A DNA stretch of 43,061 bases from Blastocatellia bacterium (GTDB lineage: Bacteria; Acidobacteriota; Blastocatellia; Pyrinomonadales; Pyrinomonadaceae), in NCBI GenBank assembly GCA_013697915.1, contig JACCVY010000212.1:1-43061 (forward strand). Reading direction: 5' to 3'. Position 1 is the first letter of the stretch. The number at the start of each line of letters is the position of its first letter. The translations under genes and the position numbers were made by a program. Under the pieces are notes generated by a model. The model was not told where the DNA came from and did no database searches. It worked only from the letters and a program-made list of their open reading frames with translations. This document shows positions 13,207-32,073 of this stretch, piece after piece.

Positions 13207-15867
13207 TTAGCCGGCCACGCGACGCCAAACCCTGGCCTCGCCTTCAATCTGAATCAAACGTTTTACTTCGGAATAAGCCGCGGCGTAGGCGACTCGCATC
13301 TCTTGCGACGATCTGGCGCCGGCAAGTTTCTGTTCAATCTCTTCAGTTTTCATTGGTGAACGAGGCGCATAGCGTTCGACGAATTTCCCTTCGCCGGCCA
13401 GGTATAATGCCAGGCCTTCGGCCAACCAGCGCGGCGTGCGACCGCGACCAAGAACATCGATGGCCGCATGGGCCAACTCGTGCCGCAATGTAGTTTCGAG
13501 GATTCGCTTTCGTTTGAGTGTGGCCAGGGGTTGCAGCTCGATGCGCCGGTCGCGAGTGGCGGCTGCGGCCCACGGTGGCTGTCCCGTTCGGCCCACAAAG
13601 TTTCCGGTAGTGTCATTGACAAAAATTTCCAGAGCAGGGAACTGCACGTTCATTCCGGCCGCGCTAACCCGGTCGATCAACTCCCGGCGCGCCGTCTGTA
13701 ACGAGTTCAGCAAATCTTCAGCCTCGCGTCGCCTGACGGTGTTGGGATAGTTGAGGCGGAAGCCTTCGCTGGCGATTGTCAGTCGGGTGACGCGTTGGCT
13801 GCGTGTGGAGGTTGCGTTAATGTCCGGCGAACCCCAAAGCAAATCAGCTTCTGTGGCGTGTTCGTTCGAAATGTGAGTCGTAGGAAAATATTTGCGGAGA
13901 ATCTGACGATAGCTTGCGCCGCGCGCGGCCATTACATGAGCGCCTTCCTGACAAAGGCCAAGACCATGGCCAAAGCCGCTGCCACGAAATACGAAGTTTG
14001 TGCCCGAACGAGAAATTTCAAAGCGTGAGCTCTTCAACAGGTTCCAGCCCAACGCGCGCCCGACGATAATCTTAAAGTCCCAGCCACTCACGGTTAACCG
14101 CCGCTCGCCCGCGATCGTGATCAGTTGCGCCCGTTCAGAATCGTCACGCCGGGTAACCGATATGTTGACCAGCCGTGTGCCAATATTTGTGCGCGGATCG
14201 CTTTGCAACGCCTGCAAAAGTTTCGCTTCGGGAATCTTGTCAGTCCAACTGTGATGCGGTTGCGTCCCACAGTATTCATCGTTGACGCCTTGCAGGTATG
14301 CAGGCGCGCTCTTGCCCCATAGGGTCGCCAGGTTGGCAGTCGCGCCGCCGCAGGAAGCGCTGAAATAAGATTCGACGAGGTGATTATCTGCGTCGCTCAA
14401 AACTTCGCCGCTCGTTTCCTCAACTGCTTGCTTGACGCGCGCCGGGACATCAGCAACATCCGCCGGCAGATATCGTTGGCAATGAGTTGCAGTACAAAAA
14501 TCGTAACCATCCGCCGCATGCCGACCAAGGTTTTTGAGAACGTACGTGCGACTTGCGATAGCCAGCGCTTTCAACGCTTCCGGCTCTGCTTCGGTGCTGC
14601 CTTCGGCCGCAACCACGCCGCGCACGTAATCCTCAACGGACATGGTGCGCACTGCATCCTCACGAGCAACGTAGACGCGAACCGTAGACGAGCGCTGGGA
14701 ATCGCTCGAAGGTTTAGGTGGAACTGTCACCGGCGTTTGCGACTCTTTCGTTGCTAAGAGTTCTGGCAGATTGGTTCGGCCAAACTCCGCAAAGATTGGA
14801 CGCGCAACTTCGGCCGCATCGACGCCGTGAGCTCTTGCCAGGAAGACCAGTACCGCAAGCCCAATCTTGTCCGGCGCCGGCACGCCGGCGTCGTTTCCGT
14901 CGTTGTTCACACGCGAAGCGAAACCGACGAACCAACCGTGCGTGCGGTAGCCGTTGATTTCCGTTGCCGTGCCGGTCTTGCCAAAAATGTAGAGTGGCAA
15001 AGAATAAAGATTCGCGGATTCGGCAGTGCCATAACGAACGGCCCCGCGCATTCCCTTAACGATTAATTCGCGTTGTTCATTATCAAGCGTGACGCTGTTT
15101 TGAATTTCCGGAGATACTTTTGACGTTGCAGAAAGATGAGGCACAAAAACGCGCCCACCATTCACCAGCGCAGCATAGGCATTGATTAGTTGCAGCGGAG
15201 TGGTCTGCAGATACTCACCTTCGCCCATGGCCGACTGTGGGCGCCAGACTGAGCGTTGCATTCTTCCGGGCGACTCATTAACGATGTTGACGCCAGTCTT
15301 TCTGGCAAAACCAAAGTCGTTCAGAGTTGTCTGAAAGTTTGTTTCCGAAAGCCGCTCGCCTAGTTTTCCAAAATAGTAGTTACATGAATAGGCAATCGCT
15401 TCCGTGGGATTAAGCGGCGGCAGATCGAGCGGATGTGAACAGGTTGTATGAAACTCGCCGTGAAAATATTTTTCATGGCACAGCGTGCGTGTCTCTTCGT
15501 CGATCAATCCGGCGCGCAAACCCGCCAGGGCAGTGAACGGTTTGATTGCCGATCCAGGCGGAAAACTTTCCTGGACAGCAAGGTCAGAATTAACTATTGC
15601 GCGCACTCGCCCGGTTTGCGGATCCATGACGATGATCGCGCCCCGCCGACTCCCGAGCGCCAGAACCGCAGCCTGTTGCAGCCTCTGGTCCAACTGGGTG
15701 TCGTCACTTGTAACAGGAGAGGCACTCGGCGAAGTGCCGACCCGAACTATGGACCATGCCGAAACAGCCAACGCAAAAACCACTATGCTGACAAGCGCAG
15801 TACGGCGAAAGCCTGCACCTCGCCAGTCATTGGCGGCCCGATAACCGACAGCGCGCAATGCAAACAT
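13207..15867 (-). CDS. Penicillin-binding transpeptidase - SpoIID/LytB - gluzincin protease fusion
   Basis: This 886-residue three-domain envelope protein has one N-terminal membrane segment (about 23-42). Residues 70-365 are a minimal transpeptidase: SAIK at 106-109, SCN at 161-163, KTG at 297-299, with no dimerisation or glycosyltransferase domain. Residues about 397-665 are a SpoIID/LytB domain ('MSVEDYVRGVVAAEGSTE', 'LAIASRTYV', 'GSGFGHGLGLCQEGA'), a fold that in SpoIID is a lytic transglycosylase. Residues about 695-886 are a gluzincin peptidase: HELAH at 796-800 and E817 in 'WLAEGLALY'. The start overlaps the upstream stop (TGATG at 15865-15869), showing coupling with the membrane protein and so with the A2M locus. 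The C-terminus ends soon after the protease core and may be slightly truncated. Confidence 0.9.
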   Translation of the reverse strand: MFALRAVGYRAANDWRGAGFRRTALVSIVVFALAVSAWSIVRVGTSPSASPVTSDDTQLDQRLQQAAVLALGSRRGAIIVMDPQTGRVRAIVNSDLAVQESFPPGSAIKPFTALAGLRAGLIDEETRTLCHEKYFHGEFHTTCSHPLDLPPLNPTEAIAYSCNYYFGKLGERLSETNFQTTLNDFGFARKTGVNIVNESPGRMQRSVWRPQSAMGEGEYLQTTPLQLINAYAALVNGGRVFVPHLSATSKVSPEIQNSVTLDNEQRELIVKGMRGAVRYGTAESANLYSLPLYIFGKTGTATEINGYRTHGWFVGFASRVNNDGNDAGVPAPDKIGLAVLVFLARAHGVDAAEVARPIFAEFGRTNLPELLATKESQTPVTVPPKPSSDSQRSSTVRVYVAREDAVRTMSVEDYVRGVVAAEGSTEAEPEALKALAIASRTYVLKNLGRHAADGYDFCTATHCQRYLPADVADVPARVKQAVEETSGEVLSDADNHLVESYFSASCGGATANLATLWGKSAPAYLQGVNDEYCGTQPHHSWTDKIPEAKLLQALQSDPRTNIGTRLVNISVTRRDDSERAQLITIAGERRLTVSGWDFKIIVGRALGWNLLKSSRFEISRSGTNFVFRGSGFGHGLGLCQEGAHVMAARGASYRQILRKYFPTTHISNEHATEADLLWGSPDINATSTRSQRVTRLTIASEGFRLNYPNTVRRREAEDLLNSLQTARRELIDRVSAAGMNVQFPALEIFVNDTTGNFVGRTGQPPWAAAATRDRRIELQPLATLKRKRILETTLRHELAHAAIDVLGRGRTPRWLAEGLALYLAGEGKFVERYAPRSPMKTEEIEQKLAGARSSQEMRVAYAAAYSEVKRLIQIEGEARVWRRVAG

Positions 15868-16703
15868 CAGGCAGCCTCGTTCGCGACTGGCTCAGGTGAT
15901 TTGGGATTCAGCAAGGCAATGGCTTTAACCGTTATTACCCAACCTAAAAGCGTCAGCGCGAAAACAGCGGCGACACGTAACCCCAGCAGAATAATTTCCA
16001 GCCACGCATGCTTGTTGGGTGTGGTGCGGAACAATAGGAAGTAAGGAACCACTGCAAAAATGAGGAAGCCCACGACGTATATCAGCACCGACTGAGGAGC
16101 GAAAGCGCCAGCCAGCAGTTGTCCCGTTCTCTTAAGGGCCGCAATCAAGCCATCGCGAGCGGTGGCCACCCATAAATGAATAGCGGCGAGCGGCAATATC
16201 AGACCGAGGGCCAAATATCTGACGGTGGAGAGCGCAGCGCCTTTCCAATTGATCGGAGCGCGCGCCGTGGCGTGGGTTCGCGAAGACGCAGCCATCGGAT
16301 GAAGCTGCGTTGCGCTGTCAGGAACCGACGCAAGATGTGACTGATATTTCGCCAGCAGGTAAATGATGAGAATCGCCAGCGCAATCAGCGGCAGCGTAAC
16401 CACTATGAATTTCCAAAAGCCCGTCAGCGATCTCTTCACCAGCAGGCCTGCGCTCACCGGTTGGGCGGTGTCAGCAAACCCACTCGCGATCATTGCCTGA
16501 AGCACGAAGAAAAGAATCGGCGCCACCAACGCGAGCACAAACGTCAAGACTACTTGGGCGACACTCGCTTCTCGGACAGCCACGAAGAAGTAGAGTGTCA
16601 CCAGCAGCCCCAGGTAAACAATCGCCACCAGCAAAAGCGCGGGCCAGTTTGCGAAAACTCTTCGCACGGCAGTCACTATCGATGAAAATGTTTCTGTTAG
16701 CAT
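15867..16703 (-). CDS. Polytopic membrane protein of the A2M locus, unknown function
   Basis: The 278-residue product has about six hydrophobic segments (near 20-40, 46-72, 96-118, 155-180, 205-225, 237-262) and a Thr/Ser/Pro/His-rich loop at about 125-150 that is probably periplasmic. The layout resembles small glycerophosphoryl-diester-type or DUF-family membrane proteins, but I cannot name a family. Its stop overlaps the start of the transpeptidase fusion by one base, so the two are translationally coupled. A role as a membrane partner for that fusion is inference from position. A 169-base gap with an inverted repeat separates it from the A2M gene upstream. Confidence 0.75.
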   Translation of the reverse strand: MLTETFSSIVTAVRRVFANWPALLLVAIVYLGLLVTLYFFVAVREASVAQVVLTFVLALVAPILFFVLQAMIASGFADTAQPVSAGLLVKRSLTGFWKFIVVTLPLIALAILIIYLLAKYQSHLASVPDSATQLHPMAASSRTHATARAPINWKGAALSTVRYLALGLILPLAAIHLWVATARDGLIAALKRTGQLLAGAFAPQSVLIYVVGFLIFAVVPYFLLFRTTPNKHAWLEIILLGLRVAAVFALTLLGWVITVKAIALLNPKSPEPVANEAA

Positions 16704-16732
16704 GTTGTCCTCATTTGCAGAACTGCGAGATT

Positions 16733-16846
16733 GCAGAACCGCGGTAGCGACCGGATGCTATGCTCAAGTTATCGAGCCGTGATATTTCTTAACTGCGTAA
16801 CCTAAAGTTGCGTGTAGCATCCGGTCGCTACCGCTCGCGGTTCTGC
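16733..16846. repeat. Imperfect inverted repeat in the A2M locus
   Basis: Bases 16733-16760 and 16815-16846 are inverted copies of a 28-bp arm; the right arm carries a four-base insertion (TCGC). The central loop of about 54 bases is AT-richer. It lies between the A2M stop and the membrane-protein start, so it could be an intra-operon mRNA processing or attenuation hairpin, or a dispersed palindromic repeat. Confidence 0.75.
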
Positions 16847-16872
16847 ATCGCTGCCGGGCACAGTGCTATTCG

Positions 16873-19800
16873 TCATTTCCGCTCCAGGAACGAAAGTCGT
16901 CCTGATGCTGTGTTCGATTGCACCGCCGGACGGTACATCAGCTCCGCACGCGCCGGCGCAATGCGAAATTGACCGGGTACCTGAACGCGAATGGCATACT
17001 GGAAAGTTGAACTGCCGTCAAAGTAATCCAGGAAAAACACAGTGCGGTTGTCACGAAACTCGCGCGAGCTGTACCAATCGGACCAGTCGTAACCGGAACT
17101 GTAATCGAGATTCAGGTTGCCGACGCTTTCCACTTGTTCGGCGCCTGCCGGAATAGGATCTTCCAGCATCAAGTGACGCGCTTTTGTGCCGTTAAGTTTC
17201 AAACGAACTACCAGCATGTCACCTGAATGAATGTCGCCAGTCAGCGGATCGAGTTTCCATTTCAGCGTGCCACCGTCGTCAACCACGCGCAGGCGCAGGT
17301 ATTCGCGCGTTACATTGAGATCCGCAGAGCCGCGCGCCGGCACGTCTTCCTCGCCAGTGTAATAATCAAGCGACGAAGAAAAATAGACCACTCCTTTCCC
17401 GCGCTTCACTATGCGCACGTCGTTGGATGCGCCGACCTCTCCCGCCTTGCGATTGAGTGAGATTGTTTGTGCGGCAGTAGACGAAATGTGCTGCGTGATT
17501 ACGTTCTCTCCGTTGAGGTATACCTCGACGTCGTAATCGGGTGACAGCTCACGACTAACTTTTAAATAATCGATCAGACCAAAGATTGCGAAGGCCGTGT
17601 CCTTGGTTGATTCCCAGTAATAGCTGTTGCGCCGATCCGAAACGAGCCAGCGAGCTACCCGCGGCAATAGATAGTTGTCTGGCTTGATGCGCGCCAGTGC
17701 TTTCAGCGAAAGTGCGGTGGCTTCGGTGTCGTCCTCTTCGGCAAAGTCGAGCATCGCGCGACGGCGTGACTCCCAGTGTGCGGAATAATTATCCGCGATG
17801 ACTGTTCTTTCGATCTCCGCGGCAATATCTTTCGCGCGCTTGTCGTCCTTCTTCAATTTGAGCGTTAGAGCCAGCAAGGCACGGCCATAAGGTTGCAGAT
17901 TGCCGCGCTCGCCAAAGACCTTTTCAACCTGCTGGTTGTCGGCGCCGCCGCTTTCTTCCAATGCATAGACCATGAATGAACGCGTTTCCAGATCTATCGC
18001 GGTGCCGGCTTCGGTCTTTCCGGCCTCGACCATTTCCTTCAGCTTCTGGCGTCCGCGGCTAAGCCGGTCCGCGTTCACTTCGTAACCGGCGTTCTTGGCC
18101 AGCGTCAGGCCATCAACGACGTAAGCGGTCATGAACGGATCGCTCTGATCATCTTTCCACCAGCCCCAACCGCCATCGTCATGCTGATAAGCATAAAGAC
18201 GATCCGCGCCCTTCTGAACTTTCTTTTCCAGATCGTTTGAGCCGCGGATCGTTGAAGTCTTCACATCTTTCAAGGCTTTCGTGACGATTACATTGGGGAG
18301 AAAACTGGACATGGTCTGTTCGGTGCACCCGTAAGGATAGCTGGTCAAATAATCGAGAGCGCCAAACAACGTACCGGCCACCGAAGGGGCGACTTCGATG
18401 CGCAAACTGCGCGCGCGCTGATCAGCGTCGGCGGGCATGCTCAGCGAAAACGTCTTGTCGGTATTTTCATCCGAGAAGGTTTCGCTCTCGTTCTTAACCT
18501 GATGCAGTCCGCGCGGCACGACCGGCAGCGGCAGTTCAACTGCGTCAGATTCGGTGTCGGTCAGCGCCTTTGCCAGCAGTTTAATTTCGCCGACGTTGGG
18601 CGCGGTGATTTGCCAGTCAATACGCTGCTCGCCCTGTTTGGTGATGGTCACAGTTTTAGTGCCCGCATTTTGTAATTGCGCGCCGCTGACTTCGAGCGAG
18701 ATTTGGGTTGACTTGTCAGCGTTCAGGTAATTGTGAACGATGCCGGAAAGCGTCACGGTATCGCCTTGCGTGACAAAGCGCGGCGTCTCAAGGCGCATGA
18801 TTACGTCTTTGCGAGCGACCACTTTATACTTTGTGGCGCCGACTTTCGTGTCCGCGGTTACAGCACGCGCTGTGGCGCGCCAGGTAGTTAGGTTGTCAGG
18901 CAAGGTAACGTTAACCGTGGCCTTGCCGTCTGGTCCGGTGATTACGTCCGGCTGCCAAAACGCCGTGTCCTTAAAGTTTCTTCTGATTGTTGGTTGGACC
19001 AGCTCGCCTTCGTTTTTGAAGTCCGCAAGCTGATAGGTCGGTTTGTTGCGCGCGAGGTAGAGCGGCTTGTCGCCCGCGAAGCCGGTGAATGAATAGCTGA
19101 TCGAGAGATGAGTTTCGACCGTGTTGTAGCGCATGCCGTAAAACTCATTCTTGATGTTACCCGCAAAATCGGGAGACACGCTGTAGATAGCTTCATCAAC
19201 CACGCCAAGACTAACTTCGGCTCCAGAAACCGGCGCGCCATCGGAGTTGCGGGCAAGAATCGTATATGACGCCGACTCCCGCGGTTTGTACTCCTTCTTG
19301 TTCGAGATGATTTCCAGATTCAGCATCTTGTCGCGCGCAGGCACGACCAGCCGCTGGTCGCTCGTAAACATGTCGCCGTTCTTCACGTAGGAAACGTTCA
19401 AGAAAACGTTGGGCGCATAGTTTGTCCGGATCGGAATGTCGAGCACAATCGATCTTCCCGTGGAGTTCACGTGCTGAAGATCCATGACGGTGGTCAATTC
19501 CGTGCTGACCAGCAGGTGAGCATTGTCGGTCGGCAGGATGGCGAGCACATGCGCAGTTTCGCCGGCACGATATGACTTTTTATCCGGAACGAGTTTGATG
19601 GAATTGTAGTCTTCACTGTAGTACGACGAATCAGTCCAGGAATACTGCCAATCAGTTACCCAAAGATAACCGCCGATTGAGGCAACTTTCTTACCCGACT
19701 CGTCGATAATCGTCTTGATCGAAAGATTCCCATCTTCTGTAGTTGTGTAGTCGTAGCTCGCCTGGCCCTGGGAATCGGTTTGCACCTCGGCCGAAGCAAT

Positions 19801-21774
19801 CTCGCGTTCGTGCATCTCATACGCAGGGTAGGAATACTCTTCATCCTCCTTCTTTTCCTTTTTGGTCCAGGTGCGTTCGACAAACTTGAGTTGTACCTTA
19901 GCGGAAACGCGATGGCCCTCGTAATCGCTGGTTGTGACGCGAATTTTAGCGATGTCGCCTTTGTTGTAAACGTAGCGATCGGGGTCCGCGTTCGCGACAA
20001 TAGTCCCGCGCGTGGCCACAAAACTGGCGCTGCCATCAATCGTGCGCCGGGCTGAATCGGTTACCTGAGCCTCGAGCCGGTAGCTGTAATCGTTCGTATC
20101 GTTCTCGTCTGTGGCGGGTATATCAAACGCAACATTCAAATGCCCGCGCGCGTCCAACTTTCCGTCGCTCTCCTGGACCATGTCATCGCCGCCACCGTAA
20201 TAAGACGAGTATTCATCTTCCCGATCAGAAGCGTCGCCAGTGTCTTCGCTTTCGTCCTCTCCAAAATTCCAGGCGTAATAGCGTGAACGATAGACGTAGT
20301 AATGAACATCCGCATTGGCTACGGGCGAGCCAAAGAAATACTTGGCAGCGATCGAGAAACTTGTTTTCTGGCCGGCCTGTACGAATTTTGCGGGCGCGGA
20401 AACCGTTACCTTGTATTCGGGCTTTTTGTATTCGGCGACTTCGAAATTGCCGCTTGCGCTTCCGCCTGCAATTTCGGCCGCAATGGTGTAGGTGCCCAGC
20501 GGAGCTGATTCGGAAATATCCATTTCACCGTTGAAAGTGCCGCGCGCTGAAAGCGGCAGTTCTTTGGTAAAGACGCTGGCGCTGTTTGGATCTGTGACTG
20601 TGACGTTGATTGTGCTGTCGCCGACGGACTTGTAAGCGCCCGACGAGTCGATCGCCCGAACGATTCCTTTGAATGAAACCTTGTGCGCTGGTCTGTAAAC
20701 CGGACGGTCCGTGTAGACGTATCCCTTAACGTTTTCGGAATTCTCTTCGCCGTCATAACCGCTAAAGAACAGCGAGCCCAGATCCGAGATTGCAAAGTTG
20801 CCACTCTGTTTGGCGAGGATCAGATAGGATTTGGAGTCAGTGTCTTCGTCGGCTGCGGGAGCGTCAGCCGCCTCATCACCTGCCGCTGCTTTTGGTTTAT
20901 CTACCTTGGTGCGCAGCACGCCCTGGCTGTCGGTTGTTCCAGTGGCGACCACTTTCTCCTCTTTTATGATCTCGACTTGCGCGCCGGGCCGGGGCTCACC
21001 AGTCTTGCGATCGACCGTGTAGATCAACATATCGCCGTCGCGGGTAGTCTTATCGAGCATAGTCAAATCTGTGACCACCACTACCGTGTAGGCGCGCAAA
21101 TCATTGACGACGGCTTCAACCAGGTAGACGCCGGGAGCGCGTTTGCCTAAAGGGATCATGCGTTGGTCGTATTCGTTTTCAAGCGGCGGCAAAGGCTCGC
21201 GCCAACTGCTAACCAGCAAATCAGGATTCAAGAGCGGCACGCGCGCGTAATCGGAAACATTCAAAGGCGTGCGCACAACTTCTTTTTCGGCGCGAAACTT
21301 TTGATTAAAAGCCTGGCGCGAGTCGTGTTGCAGTTGTTCGCGGACGAAAGTCTTGATACCGGAAAAGGCCCAGCGCTTGAAGCCGCGCACCCGTTCAAGA
21401 AACGATTTGCGATGCGGCACGGAGCTGGCTACCTGTTCCTGTTCGTTTTCACCAACCTGATGCGGATTCTTCAGGTCAGTAAAAAACTTGCGCGGATCCT
21501 TTACCTGATAGACACGAAAGTCGAGATGGTCCACCGCCTGATAATCAACCCAAAGCCGCGCGTTGTCGTTCGTTCCGTAGGTCCGATGCGTTGATAGTGA
21601 AAAGAATGGTTTGCTGGGAATTGGCCGCTCAACTTCCTCATCAGGCGCCGTCGGCGCGGCGCCGGCCTTTGCCCGAGAGCGCAAGGTTGCGACGGTAAGC
21701 GCAGCGGCGATGGCTACAACGTAGACCAGCGACGTAATCAGAATGCGGTAAGAACGAGAATTCGTGTCTAACAC
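16873..21774 (-). CDS. Alpha-2-macroglobulin family protein with intact thioester
   Basis: The 1633-residue product is anchored by an N-terminal membrane segment (about 9-28) and placed in the periplasm. It has stacked macroglobulin beta domains (MG2 at about 350-450: 'GYVYTDRPVYRPAHKVSFKG'), a bait-region-like acidic Tyr/Ser-rich segment near 500-545, the A2M signature 'FWQPDVITGPDGKATVNVTL' near 945-965, and an alpha-helical thioester domain with C1150-T-E-Q1153 ('YPYGCTEQTMSS'). Bacterial A2M proteins trap attacking proteases covalently through this thioester. The Cys and Gln are both present, unlike YfaS-type members that have lost them. It is preceded by DUF1175 and followed by a membrane protein and the transpeptidase fusion on the same strand. 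Confidence 0.93.
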   Translation of the reverse strand: MLDTNSRSYRILITSLVYVVAIAAALTVATLRSRAKAGAAPTAPDEEVERPIPSKPFFSLSTHRTYGTNDNARLWVDYQAVDHLDFRVYQVKDPRKFFTDLKNPHQVGENEQEQVASSVPHRKSFLERVRGFKRWAFSGIKTFVREQLQHDSRQAFNQKFRAEKEVVRTPLNVSDYARVPLLNPDLLVSSWREPLPPLENEYDQRMIPLGKRAPGVYLVEAVVNDLRAYTVVVVTDLTMLDKTTRDGDMLIYTVDRKTGEPRPGAQVEIIKEEKVVATGTTDSQGVLRTKVDKPKAAAGDEAADAPAADEDTDSKSYLILAKQSGNFAISDLGSLFFSGYDGEENSENVKGYVYTDRPVYRPAHKVSFKGIVRAIDSSGAYKSVGDSTINVTVTDPNSASVFTKELPLSARGTFNGEMDISESAPLGTYTIAAEIAGGSASGNFEVAEYKKPEYKVTVSAPAKFVQAGQKTSFSIAAKYFFGSPVANADVHYYVYRSRYYAWNFGEDESEDTGDASDREDEYSSYYGGGDDMVQESDGKLDARGHLNVAFDIPATDENDTNDYSYRLEAQVTDSARRTIDGSASFVATRGTIVANADPDRYVYNKGDIAKIRVTTSDYEGHRVSAKVQLKFVERTWTKKEKKEDEEYSYPAYEMHEREIASAEVQTDSQGQASYDYTTTEDGNLSIKTIIDESGKKVASIGGYLWVTDWQYSWTDSSYYSEDYNSIKLVPDKKSYRAGETAHVLAILPTDNAHLLVSTELTTVMDLQHVNSTGRSIVLDIPIRTNYAPNVFLNVSYVKNGDMFTSDQRLVVPARDKMLNLEIISNKKEYKPRESASYTILARNSDGAPVSGAEVSLGVVDEAIYSVSPDFAGNIKNEFYGMRYNTVETHLSISYSFTGFAGDKPLYLARNKPTYQLADFKNEGELVQPTIRRNFKDTAFWQPDVITGPDGKATVNVTLPDNLTTWRATARAVTADTKVGATKYKVVARKDVIMRLETPRFVTQGDTVTLSGIVHNYLNADKSTQISLEVSGAQLQNAGTKTVTITKQGEQRIDWQITAPNVGEIKLLAKALTDTESDAVELPLPVVPRGLHQVKNESETFSDENTDKTFSLSMPADADQRARSLRIEVAPSVAGTLFGALDYLTSYPYGCTEQTMSSFLPNVIVTKALKDVKTSTIRGSNDLEKKVQKGADRLYAYQHDDGGWGWWKDDQSDPFMTAYVVDGLTLAKNAGYEVNADRLSRGRQKLKEMVEAGKTEAGTAIDLETRSFMVYALEESGGADNQQVEKVFGERGNLQPYGRALLALTLKLKKDDKRAKDIAAEIERTVIADNYSAHWESRRRAMLDFAEEDDTEATALSLKALARIKPDNYLLPRVARWLVSDRRNSYYWESTKDTAFAIFGLIDYLKVSRELSPDYDVEVYLNGENVITQHISSTAAQTISLNRKAGEVGASNDVRIVKRGKGVVYFSSSLDYYTGEEDVPARGSADLNVTREYLRLRVVDDGGTLKWKLDPLTGDIHSGDMLVVRLKLNGTKARHLMLEDPIPAGAEQVESVGNLNLDYSSGYDWSDWYSSREFRDNRTVFFLDYFDGSSTFQYAIRVQVPGQFRIAPARAELMYRPAVQSNTASGRLSFLERK

Positions 21775-21792
21775 GGCTTAGCCTCCTTTGGG

Positions 21793-22662
21793 CTAGTCGA
21801 GAATTTTCAGACGATAGAAGCCGAGAAAGTTGGAATTGCTGTCAAGCGGCCGCCAGCGTTTGTTGGGATGATGATCGAGCACGGACAGCTCGACCTTCTT
21901 AACTGTTCCTTCATCGGTTGGCGACGCGCCAGTGTGATAGACGACCCAATCGCTTGCCGCTTCGTTACTGAGCTTCGCGCTCCCAAGAAAAATCATTACG
22001 TGGTAAGGAAACTTTTGCACCCAGGGCTGATAGAAGAAGAGCAGATCACCCGGCTCGGCGTTGTGGCGATCGCGACCGATAAACTTAACGTTGAAATTCT
22101 TGAGCGTCCGCGCATCGGCAAAGTCGGAAAATGCGCCATTGGACAAGTCACCGTCCTTATAAACGCCAAAGCTGGAACGGAAAAGTTTTTCGCCCAGTGG
22201 TCCTTGTTCGAGGGTGTACCTGCCTACGTCCGGTGCAATCGCCTGATATCCTGGCCCCATTTTTTGAAACCACGCCCGGTCATGACGGCGCAGTGCTTCG
22301 CGCCAGGCGAAACGCACCAGGCCGGCACAATCGCGCTGTTCGGCGTTCCATTGATCGCTTAAATGGTAAAACTGGCCTTCAGCAATCAGGGTGAACCATT
22401 GCCGGAAGTTTTGGCGGTCCATGAAACTTTGCAGCTCCGCCGCGTCCGGCAGGCCGTCGTTGTCTGAATCAAGCGAAGGTGTGTGGGCCGAATGGGCGAG
22501 CGGCGAGATCGTTGTGCCGGAGGATTTGGATGACGGCGAGACCGCCGCGATGGTTGCGCTTTTCCGGTTCCTGCCGAGCACGAAGTAGGAAACCAAAAGG
22601 ACCAGTGCGAACCAAAGCACTAATGCGAACGTAACTTGTCGACGTTTCAGGAACGCGAACAT
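21793..22662 (-). CDS. DUF1175 family protein (YfaT-like, NlpC/P60-type fold)
   Basis: This 289-residue protein has an N-terminal membrane anchor (about 10-30). A calcium-loop-like 'DSDNDGLPDAAEL' (65-77) precedes the main domain. The domain has C112 in 'RDCAGLVRFAW' and H221 in 'FPYHVMIFLG', with 'EPGDLLFF' before it, the arrangement of NlpC/P60 cysteine peptidases and amidases acting on cell wall. In E. coli the DUF1175 gene yfaT sits beside the A2M gene yfaS, and the same pairing is seen here 18 bases upstream of the A2M gene. Activity is inferred from the C...H pair; the family is formally uncharacterised as far as I know. Confidence 0.87.
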   Translation of the reverse strand: MFAFLKRRQVTFALVLWFALVLLVSYFVLGRNRKSATIAAVSPSSKSSGTTISPLAHSAHTPSLDSDNDGLPDAAELQSFMDRQNFRQWFTLIAEGQFYHLSDQWNAEQRDCAGLVRFAWREALRRHDRAWFQKMGPGYQAIAPDVGRYTLEQGPLGEKLFRSSFGVYKDGDLSNGAFSDFADARTLKNFNVKFIGRDRHNAEPGDLLFFYQPWVQKFPYHVMIFLGSAKLSNEAASDWVVYHTGASPTDEGTVKKVELSVLDHHPNKRWRPLDSNSNFLGFYRLKILD

Positions 22663-23008: not shown

Positions 23009-23194
23009 GTGCCGATCGGAACATGTCCCGAATGTGATGCGGATGTCCATGTGGATACTGACACAGACAAAGGCGAACTCGTCTCGTGTGAAGAGTGTGG
23101 TACGGATCTGGAAGTAGTCGGATTGGATCCAGTACAGTTGGACATCGTCGAAGAAGATGATTTGGACGACGATGAGGATGAAGACGAGTTCTGA
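23009..23194 (+). CDS. LysW-like small zinc-ribbon carrier protein
   Basis: The 61-residue acidic protein starts at GTG 23009 after GCGGAGG. The four zinc-binding Cys are at 6, 9, 27 and 30 ('TCPECDADV', 'GELVSCEECGTDLEVVGLDP'), matching LysW, the amino-group carrier of the AAA lysine and related ornithine pathways, almost residue for residue in the core. LysW normally ends in EDWGE, whose last Glu gamma-carboxyl accepts the substrate; here the end is an Asp/Glu run finishing in Phe ('DDDEDEDEF'). No lysX, lysZ, lysY or lysJ homologue is nearby. It may be a carrier for another chemistry or a non-carrier zinc-ribbon protein. Confidence 0.85.
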   Translation: MPIGTCPECDADVHVDTDTDKGELVSCEECGTDLEVVGLDPVQLDIVEEDDLDDDEDEDEF

Positions 23195-30390: not shown

Positions 30391-32073
30391 ATGACATTGA
30401 TTAACCGATACCCTCGGACCTTTAATATTGCACTTATACTTTTCGTTCTCCTCGTTCTCCCACTCCAAGCTTCAGTTCTTGCCAAGAAACGTCACGCTGA
30501 CGCTCCTCGCAAAGTAGCGCGCGTCGAAAGGGGCAGGAACGACCGAGGCAGAAAGCTCTCGGCCAGGGAGCGACGCGCGTCCAAGCGCGAGGAACGCTTG
30601 TCCGCTCGGAATTCGCGACGCGATTCCAGACGTGGCGTAAATTCGAAACTATCCAAACGTGAACTACGGCATGAGGCCGCACGCGCACAAGCAACATCAC
30701 TCAAAGAGCTCGAGCGTAAACTGCGCCGGCCGATGGGCAGACGAGAACGCGCCGCTGAATTGCGTCGCCTGGCAGCGCAACGCCGGCGCGAAATCCTTGA
30801 GGCACGCAGGCGCGCGGAAGCAGCCCGTTTGGCGGCTATCGCCCGGCAGCGCGCGATCGATGAAGCTCTCCGCAACGAAGTACAGACGATGATCGCTCGT
30901 GACAACATCGTTGGCGAAGACCCTGAAGTACGGCGTGTAGCGGTCAACGCTTTGGGAAATCACGCGGGTACAGTCGTAGTGATGGATCCGATGAATGGCA
31001 AGGTATATTCGATAGTCAACCAGGAGTGGGCTTTGCGACGCGGTTTCAAACCCTGCTCAACGATAAAGTTGGTGACCGGCGTTGCCGGCCTTTCGGAAAA
31101 CATCATTTCGCCGTCAGAGTCAGCATTGACCTCGGATCGCCCGCGCATGGATCTGACCTCAGCCCTGGCCCACTCAGACAACTCTTACTTTGAACATGTT
31201 GGCAGCAGTCTCGGTTTTGACAAGATGGTCCATTACGCGCGCGAGCTAGGCCTCGGTGAAAAGACGGGCCTCAATGTTCCCTTCGAATATCCGGGCCGCC
31301 TACCTGAAATGAAACCTGGTTTCACGGTGCGCCGCATGTTTTCTTACGCCGATGGATTTGAAGTCACGCCGCTGCAACTGGGCAGTCTCGTTTCAGCTAT
31401 GGCAAATGGCGGCAAACTCTACGAGCCACAGGTTCCTCGCAGTGCACAGGAAGCGGCGCGCTTCAAAGGAAAAGTTCGGCGCAAACTAAACATCGACAGC
31501 GCCGTTTTTCAACGCATGATTCCGGGTATGGTAGGCGCGGTAAACTACGGGTCGGGCCGTCGCGCTTACGATCCAACACAAACGGTTGCTGGAAAAACGG
31601 GCACTTGCAATGGCGGCGAAGGAAGTTGGGTAGGTTTGTTTACTTCCTATGCTCCGATAGCCAATCCAAAACTAGCCGTTGTCGTGATAACCCGGGGAAC
31701 AGATGCCCACCGGCATTTACCCGCGGCCGTCGCCGGCCAGATCTATCGTGATCTTAGCCGTCGCTTTGGCACGCCTGCGCATTTGCAACTTGCCTCGGCG
31801 CCGGATGACGAAGAGAACGACGAGGACGCGGCTACCGCACAGATTGATACTAGCGGCAACACGCAGCCCTCGACCTCCCCGACTCCGATGCCGCTGGTGA
31901 ACAACCCAGCGCAGCGGGACAACGTGAAAAGAGTGTTGATGCCAATACCATCTCGTACGAGTCAACCCTCAAATGCGGCAAATTCTAAACCTCCAACCGC
32001 CACCAAGGACGCCGTCAAGCCAACGACACAACCTGACGATCGGCTTCGGAGAACTCAGTCGCCGCGGCCCTAA
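30391..32073 (+). CDS. Stand-alone penicillin-binding transpeptidase with Arg-rich N-terminal region
   Basis: The 560-residue product has an N-terminal signal or anchor (about 12-31), then an extremely Arg/Lys-rich, Ala/Glu-containing helical region (about 32-170, e.g. 'KLSARERRASKREERLSARN'), then a transpeptidase domain: S223-T-I-K226 in 'PCSTIK', SDN at 262-264, KTG at 402-404. It lacks the dimerisation and glycosyltransferase domains of PBPs, like the transpeptidase in 13207-15867. The C-terminal 90 residues are Pro/Thr/Ser-rich and probably disordered. The catalytic triad motifs are intact, so DD-transpeptidase or carboxypeptidase activity is likely; the basic region may bind anionic envelope polymers (inference). 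An AGGAAAGG ribosome site precedes the ATG. Confidence 0.9.
   Translation: MTLINRYPRTFNIALILFVLLVLPLQASVLAKKRHADAPRKVARVERGRNDRGRKLSARERRASKREERLSARNSRRDSRRGVNSKLSKRELRHEAARAQATSLKELERKLRRPMGRRERAAELRRLAAQRRREILEARRRAEAARLAAIARQRAIDEALRNEVQTMIARDNIVGEDPEVRRVAVNALGNHAGTVVVMDPMNGKVYSIVNQEWALRRGFKPCSTIKLVTGVAGLSENIISPSESALTSDRPRMDLTSALAHSDNSYFEHVGSSLGFDKMVHYARELGLGEKTGLNVPFEYPGRLPEMKPGFTVRRMFSYADGFEVTPLQLGSLVSAMANGGKLYEPQVPRSAQEAARFKGKVRRKLNIDSAVFQRMIPGMVGAVNYGSGRRAYDPTQTVAGKTGTCNGGEGSWVGLFTSYAPIANPKLAVVVITRGTDAHRHLPAAVAGQIYRDLSRRFGTPAHLQLASAPDDEENDEDAATAQIDTSGNTQPSTSPTPMPLVNNPAQRDNVKRVLMPIPSRTSQPSNAANSKPPTATKDAVKPTTQPDDRLRRTQSPRP

Follow-up and report, generated by a model that had tools for sequence, protein, structure and literature searches.

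Bacterial alpha-2-macroglobulins (A2Ms) are sorted into Type I proteins, which have a thioester and occur with PbpC, and Type II proteins, which have no thioester and occur with a six-gene operon. A locus in a 43,061-nucleotide (nt) contig of a Blastocatellia bacterium, a soil acidobacterium (JACCVY010000212.1, the whole of which is called the window here) raises the question of how these two kinds of trap are related. It encodes, in this order, a DUF1175 protein, an A2M with a thioester, a six-helix membrane protein, and a fusion of a transpeptidase, a SpoIID domain, and a HExxH metallopeptidase-like domain. A preliminary description of the DNA had interpreted the locus as a mixture of the two A2M classes, in which the fusion replaces PbpC. 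Our comparisons of sequences and gene neighborhoods indicate that the locus is one lineage in a fuller form, and not the thioester of one class joined to the partner of another. We consider it likely that the locus represents a relative of the envelope-protecting Yfa/Mag operon in which the catalytic sites are intact.

The four genes lie on the minus strand. The DUF1175 gene (21793-22662, 289 aa) and the A2M gene (16873-21774, 1633 aa, GTG start) were identified by open reading frame (ORF) calls and Pfam searches, the membrane protein gene (15867-16703, 278 aa) by ORF call and helix prediction, and the fusion gene (13207-15867, 886 aa) by ORF call with Pfam and NCBIfam. A gap of 18 nt separates the first two genes and a gap of 169 nt the second and third, and the last two overlap by 1 nt. 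These results agreed with the preliminary description in the positions, junctions, and contents of the genes.

We first consider the descent of the A2M. Its Pfam domains are MG2, the bait region, A2M, TED, and bMG10; it has an N-terminal membrane helix, and its thioester, CTEQ at residue 1150, is intact, as had been noticed earlier, and lies in a normal sequence context (TSYPYGCTEQTMSSFL). This protein gave the sole A2M bait-region match in the window's genome. Motifs were counted in loci that had been annotated by profile as containing DUF1175 and A2M, and a few genomes are counted twice in this and the following motif counts. The thioester motif CxEQ was present in 82 of the 84 full A2Ms from DUF1175 loci, and the two A2Ms that lacked it were YfaS of Escherichia coli and of Citrobacter. 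In the trees and the motif counts, the Yfa side was represented by these enterobacterial YfaS and YfaQ proteins, and the Pseudomonas Mag proteins were compared from the literature. A tree of 52 rows placed the DUF1175-linked A2Ms and YfaS on one side, and YfhM on the opposite side, together with the PbpC-linked A2Ms and other solo ones; one A2M without DUF1175 (L164) fell on the DUF1175-linked side. A tree of 31 rows, from which several long branches had been dropped, agreed, with YfaS beside the DUF1175-linked rows. Its sequence thus places the window A2M with YfaS and the DUF1175-linked A2Ms and separates it from the YfhM/PbpC group.

The PbpC-linked A2Ms of the same phylum are larger (approximately 1800-2030 aa, and up to 2150 aa for solo A2Ms), and nearly all of them have the thioester. 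Because both sides of the tree keep the thioester, its loss in YfaS is the simpler reading at either position of that protein. Both A2M groups probably possessed the thioester, which was then lost in the enterobacterial branch, so that "Type II" would be a derived state. The window A2M stands outside Type II as defined by the absence of CxEQ, because it has CTEQ, yet it shares the same descent. Because almost all DUF1175-linked A2Ms keep the thioester, the division into Type I and Type II by thioester does not follow descent, and the mixture of classes that had been proposed for this locus falls away. It is very improbable that a YfhM-type (Type I) A2M gained a DUF1175 neighbor here and exchanged its PbpC for another transpeptidase. 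The locus does share the thioester, the A2M architecture, and a nearby transpeptidase with yfhM-pbpC (Type I A2M, ECAM), but the window A2M has neither the PbpC neighbor nor the tree grouping of that type, the thioester is general among DUF1175-linked A2Ms, and the PbpC-linked A2Ms form a separate, longer family within the phylum, where true PbpC-like neighbors adjoin this different, larger A2M family. In addition, yfhM-pbpC has no DUF1175, PbpC includes a glycosyltransferase domain but lacks SpoIID and HExxH domains, and the fusion matches YfaQ rather than PbpC, as described below.

The partner upstream of the A2M matched DUF1175 (PF06672, E = 1.5e-66), and the DUF1175 profile matched the MagC structure 7bk8 in a search against the PDB (E = 6.5e-62). 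The protein has an N-terminal membrane helix, a TSP3-like calcium-type motif (SDNDGLPDAAEL), and intact Cys112, His221, and His243 residues; its score against the NlpC/P60 model of Pfam was 22.6, just below the cut-off of 23.0. It is 92% identical to its nearest named relative, from Pyrinomonadaceae BP_18. Based on these matches, the gene product is the counterpart of MagC/YfaT and is NlpC/P60-like. Cys112 was found in 96 of 96 family members and His221 in 95 of 96. The second histidine (His243 of the window) was replaced by Asp in seven Terriglobia and by Asn in one (L103, L109, L112, L115, L117, L119, L123, and L128), in which the cysteine and the first histidine were retained.

The fusion protein has a membrane helix (residues 23-41) followed by three domains. 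The class-B-PBP-like (PBP, penicillin-binding protein) transpeptidase domain (PF00905, E = 7.8e-45) carries the motifs S106xxK, S161xN, and K297TG; the residues Ser106, Lys109, Ser161, Asn163, Lys297, and Gly299 were retained in all rows with sequence at those positions among the 55 surveyed, one of which is truncated at SxxK. A fold search with the model of the fusion gave Z scores of approximately 35 to PBP2/PBP3 structures, and the matches were all filled by this part of the protein. The SpoIID domain (residues ~395-668; Pfam E = 6.6e-23; TIGR02669 SpoIID_LytB, E = 9e-55) contains Glu422, Cys458, His462, and Cys463, which are the presumed catalytic glutamate and zinc-type Cys/His residues. 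Glu422 was conserved in 65 of 65 rows, including both YfaQ proteins, and Cys458 and Cys463 in 63 of 65, being missing only in YfaQ. This domain matched the SpoIID lytic transglycosylases 5i1t, 5txu, and 4rwr across ~300 residues (E = 7e-41) and has in common with them the conserved Glu and the Cys/His set; it differs from them in that it is flanked, within one fused protein, by a transpeptidase domain and a metallopeptidase-like one and is linked to an A2M, not to sporulation. The C-terminal domain (residues ~695-886) gave no Pfam family above the cut-off and no sequence match in the PDB; its similarity to Peptidase_MA_2 was below the cut-off both in the window (E = 0.011) and in the best-scoring member (E = 2.3e-5). 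Its H796ExxH motif (HELAH) with Glu817 downstream is the gluzincin (Peptidase MA) motif, and His796, Glu797, and Glu817 were present in 63 of 63 rows and His800 in 62 of 63. Pfam detected no glycosyltransferase domain in the fusion, which speaks against its having taken the place of PbpC.

The fusion instead resembles E. coli YfaQ, which is annotated as a tandem DUF2300 protein. YfaQ gave a SpoIID match above the Pfam cut-off and matched the SpoIID profile of the fusion with E values of ~1e-8 to 1e-10 (hmmsearch, E = 2e-10; hhalign probability, 96%). Its N-terminus aligned with the transpeptidase profile (hhalign P = 3e-4; score 34.4, compared with a best score of 18.0 in 40 decoys), and the alignment paired SxxK (SLWK), two cysteines, and SCN (SCG), with KTW at the KTG position by eye. 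At the C-terminus, HEYLH followed by a Glu was aligned to the HExxH motif in the profile (hhalign P = 0.007; score 22.1 vs. 19.9 for the best decoy), a placement that is suggestive only. The three regions occur in YfaQ in the same order as in the fusion. Conversely, YfaQ has SCG in place of SxN and KTW in place of KTG, and it has lost the Cys/His ligands and the C-terminal half of the SpoIID domain. In the plasmid collection, the only YfaQ sequences were those of E. coli and Citrobacter. A DUF2300 match in Pfam on the C-terminal domain of L100 (E = 2.9e-7) was also considered as a link to YfaQ, but by coordinates it did not align HExxH with HExxH and was left unused. A study from 2025 independently described YfaQ as transpeptidase-like and SpoIID-like (PMC12282094), and YfaQ is the name under which PA4488 (magE) is listed elsewhere (PMC10977779). 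We regard the fusion as the counterpart of YfaQ/MagE on the grounds of its position, its sequence, and the order of its domains; the metallopeptidase-like third part of YfaQ is an addition of the present analysis and is suggestive only.

The same gene order recurs in the known operons. The Mag operon of Pseudomonas aeruginosa (magABCDEF, PA4492-PA4487) shares with the window the order DUF1175 (MagC), A2M (MagD), and YfaQ-type protein (MagE), together with the envelope location. In contrast to the window A2M, MagD has no thioester, and the window locus has no counterparts of MagB and MagF and has the six-helix membrane protein in addition. The E. coli operon yfaA-yfaT-yfaS-yfaQ-yfaP likewise shares the order yfaT-yfaS-yfaQ, and its YfaQ has SpoIID and the aligned transpeptidase-like and HExxH regions, but its YfaS lacks CxEQ, and yfaS is a pseudogene in K-12. 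As phmmer searches of the window with YfaA (DUF2138) and YfaP (DUF2135) found no match, we classify the locus as a variant and not as the six-gene operon itself. Among the papers available to us, none was found that links A2M, SpoIID, and penicillin-binding proteins as they are linked here.

We next asked how widely the arrangement is conserved. DUF1175 was found in 38 of 297 genomes of the phylum, and all 38 also had A2M, compared with 163 of 297 genomes overall; no p-value is given for this co-occurrence because related genomes are not independent. The neighborhood set consisted of 28 regions from the phylum, 80 named genome contigs, and a few plasmid and E. coli records. Annotation of this set relied on profiles that were derived from the window family. 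Once duplicates had been removed, 78 loci contained DUF1175 together with a full A2M; in 66 of them, here called flank-complete, 4.5 kb or more of sequence followed the A2M. DUF1175 was directly upstream of the A2M on the same strand in 78 of the 78 distinct loci, and the gap was < 300 nt in 75 of them. At least one of the transpeptidase, SpoIID, and HExxH domains lay beside the A2M in 61 of the 66 flank-complete loci, and all three did so in 48; no SpoIID or HExxH match was found in 20 A2M loci from this phylum that lack DUF1175. The pairing and the conservation of the order in relatives, which the preliminary description had named as a check on its proposal, are therefore borne out across the phylum and beyond it.

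The form of the locus varies. In Blastocatellia, DUF1175, A2M, the membrane protein, and a single fusion lie on the same strand (e.g., L061, L062, L064, L084, and L088), whereas in Acidobacteriaceae (L100-L135), the transpeptidase and a SpoIID-HExxH protein are two genes facing the A2M. In two Spirochaetota loci (L127 and L129), separate genes follow the order DUF1175, A2M (CVEQ), DUF2135, transpeptidase, SpoIID, and HExxH. The DUF2135 proteins there match the YfaP/MagF type (phmmer, E = 1e-23 to 1e-29), which ties these loci to the Yfa/Mag operon and bridges the two forms; a likeness to YfaA (DUF2138) was sought in the large A2M-adjacent proteins of L127 and L108 and was not found. Three Deinococcota loci (L133, L142, and L144) consist of DUF1175, A2M, and HExxH as a separate third gene, with no other extra partner. 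The occurrence of the parts of the fusion as separate genes in these forms of the locus ties the fusion to the same system. A further Spirochaetota locus (L134, 3985-12270) had the altered order A2M, DUF2135, DUF1175, and SpoIID.

Apart from DUF1175, no partner of the A2M is as widespread as the HExxH metallopeptidase-like domain. That even the smallest locus form retains it favors a direct tie to the A2M, without showing one. Such a tie could mean that the two are a cognate pair, in which the A2M restrains the cell's own metallopeptidase or the peptidase is a dedicated activator of the A2M. We regard this as unlikely. The HExxH protein is the sole extra partner in Deinococcota, 62-63 of 63 rows retain its motif, and loss of magE disturbs the processing of MagD (PMC5764988); however, the authors of that study read the effect as one of a chaperone or of signal-peptide processing, and the domain could equally act on wall peptides. 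Less probable still is a complement-like cascade, in which the HExxH domain would be a dedicated convertase that cuts the bait region of the A2M once the SpoIID/transpeptidase part meets damaged wall, with the thioester deposited covalently on the intruder or on the wall itself. If this were true, the Mag systems of Pseudomonadota would be a decayed form of the cascade.

The best reading of the locus is a catalytically intact Mag-type periplasmic guard, of which the activity, the target, and any activation of the A2M by the protease are inferred. All of its parts would be located on the inner membrane, facing the periplasm, and the A2M would be held on the wall by the DUF1175 protein, whose counterpart MagC binds peptidoglycan (PMC10318531). 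The bait region would be cut by a protease that intrudes, the A2M would collapse, and the freed thioester would bind the intruder covalently. The fusion may edit the damaged wall locally, SpoIID cutting glycan strands and the transpeptidase re-linking or trimming peptides, while the metallopeptidase-like domain might mature or activate the A2M or trim wall peptides. The Mag operon lends support, by analogy, to the protective role suggested in the preliminary description, of which trapping, repair, and predators as the target are putative: in P. aeruginosa, magD confers protection against some effectors of the type VI secretion system that target peptidoglycan, VgrG3 and Tae1 (PMC12663445). MagD, which has no thioester, traps a protease and is found in complexes with MagA, MagB, and MagF, and loss of magB or magE disturbs MagD (PMC5764988).

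Several points weigh against this reading. MagC is a peptidoglycan binder that has been termed inactive (PMC10318531) though the family keeps the catalytic residues, so that intact motifs are no proof of activity. The missing DUF2138 and DUF2135 partners are of the MagB and MagF types, which are known to bind MagD. The wall genes of Terriglobia are convergent to the A2M, which, as in Acidobacteriaceae, means that a single operon is not required and that co-transcription is not universal. The alignments of YfaQ to the transpeptidase and HExxH profiles are weak on their own, and whether YfaS is nested within the DUF1175-linked A2Ms or lies beside them is unsure because its branch is very long.

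The locus could also encode a complex that builds or shapes the wall, in which the A2M would serve the transpeptidase and SpoIID enzymes as a scaffold or regulator; we consider this rather doubtful. Every partner except the A2M is wall-related, deletion of yfaQ in E. coli gives wider cells, links to wall genes, and a profile resembling those of mepS, nlpI, and mepK mutants (PMC12282094), and growth with chlorhexidine is altered in a magD mutant (PMC12663445). In contrast, the thioester and the bait-region domain are kept across phyla, and a scaffold would need neither; the patchy presence of the system (38 of 297 genomes) suggests an accessory role, and magD guards against injected wall enzymes (PMC12663445).

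As a version of the known operon that has kept the thioester together with the active sites of the enzymes, the locus changes the relation between the two known kinds of bacterial A2M trap. MagE/YfaQ gains a testable identity as a three-domain wall protein, the third domain of which, a metallopeptidase, would be the partner that DUF1175-linked A2Ms retain most widely. This raises the concrete question of whether the HExxH domain of YfaQ/MagE processes the A2M.

The membrane protein between the A2M and the fusion has six predicted helices and matched no Pfam family. A search of PDB folds with its model (pLDDT 87) gave none at E ≤ 0.001, the best (E = 0.16) not being credible. It was present in 25 of the 66 flank-complete loci and is conserved between the A2M and the fusion in Blastocatellia. 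On the coding strand of the 169-nt gap upstream of its gene, a terminator-like site was searched for and none was seen. The gap contains a near-perfect inverted repeat with GCGGTAGCGACCGG arms (16733-16842, no strand). The GCGGTAGCGACCGG core occurs 24 times in the genome, compared with once for a reversed control, and close inverted pairs are common; this palindrome is a dispersed genomic repeat and by itself no part of the system.

Other genes were observed around the operon. A second protein with a transpeptidase domain (560 aa, 30391-32073, plus strand) is encoded ~8 kb upstream, and transpeptidase genes also occur at the edge of loci L061, L072, and L074. An acidobacterial VWA protein (TIGR03436, 23279-24319) is encoded upstream on the same strand as the operon, and a TIGR03436 VWA gene is likewise upstream in L035, from the same genus, and in L043. 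Finally, an uncalled plus-strand ORF of 61 aa (23009-23194, MPIGTCPECDADVHVDTDTDKGEL...) appears by eye to be LysW-like (an amino-group carrier protein).

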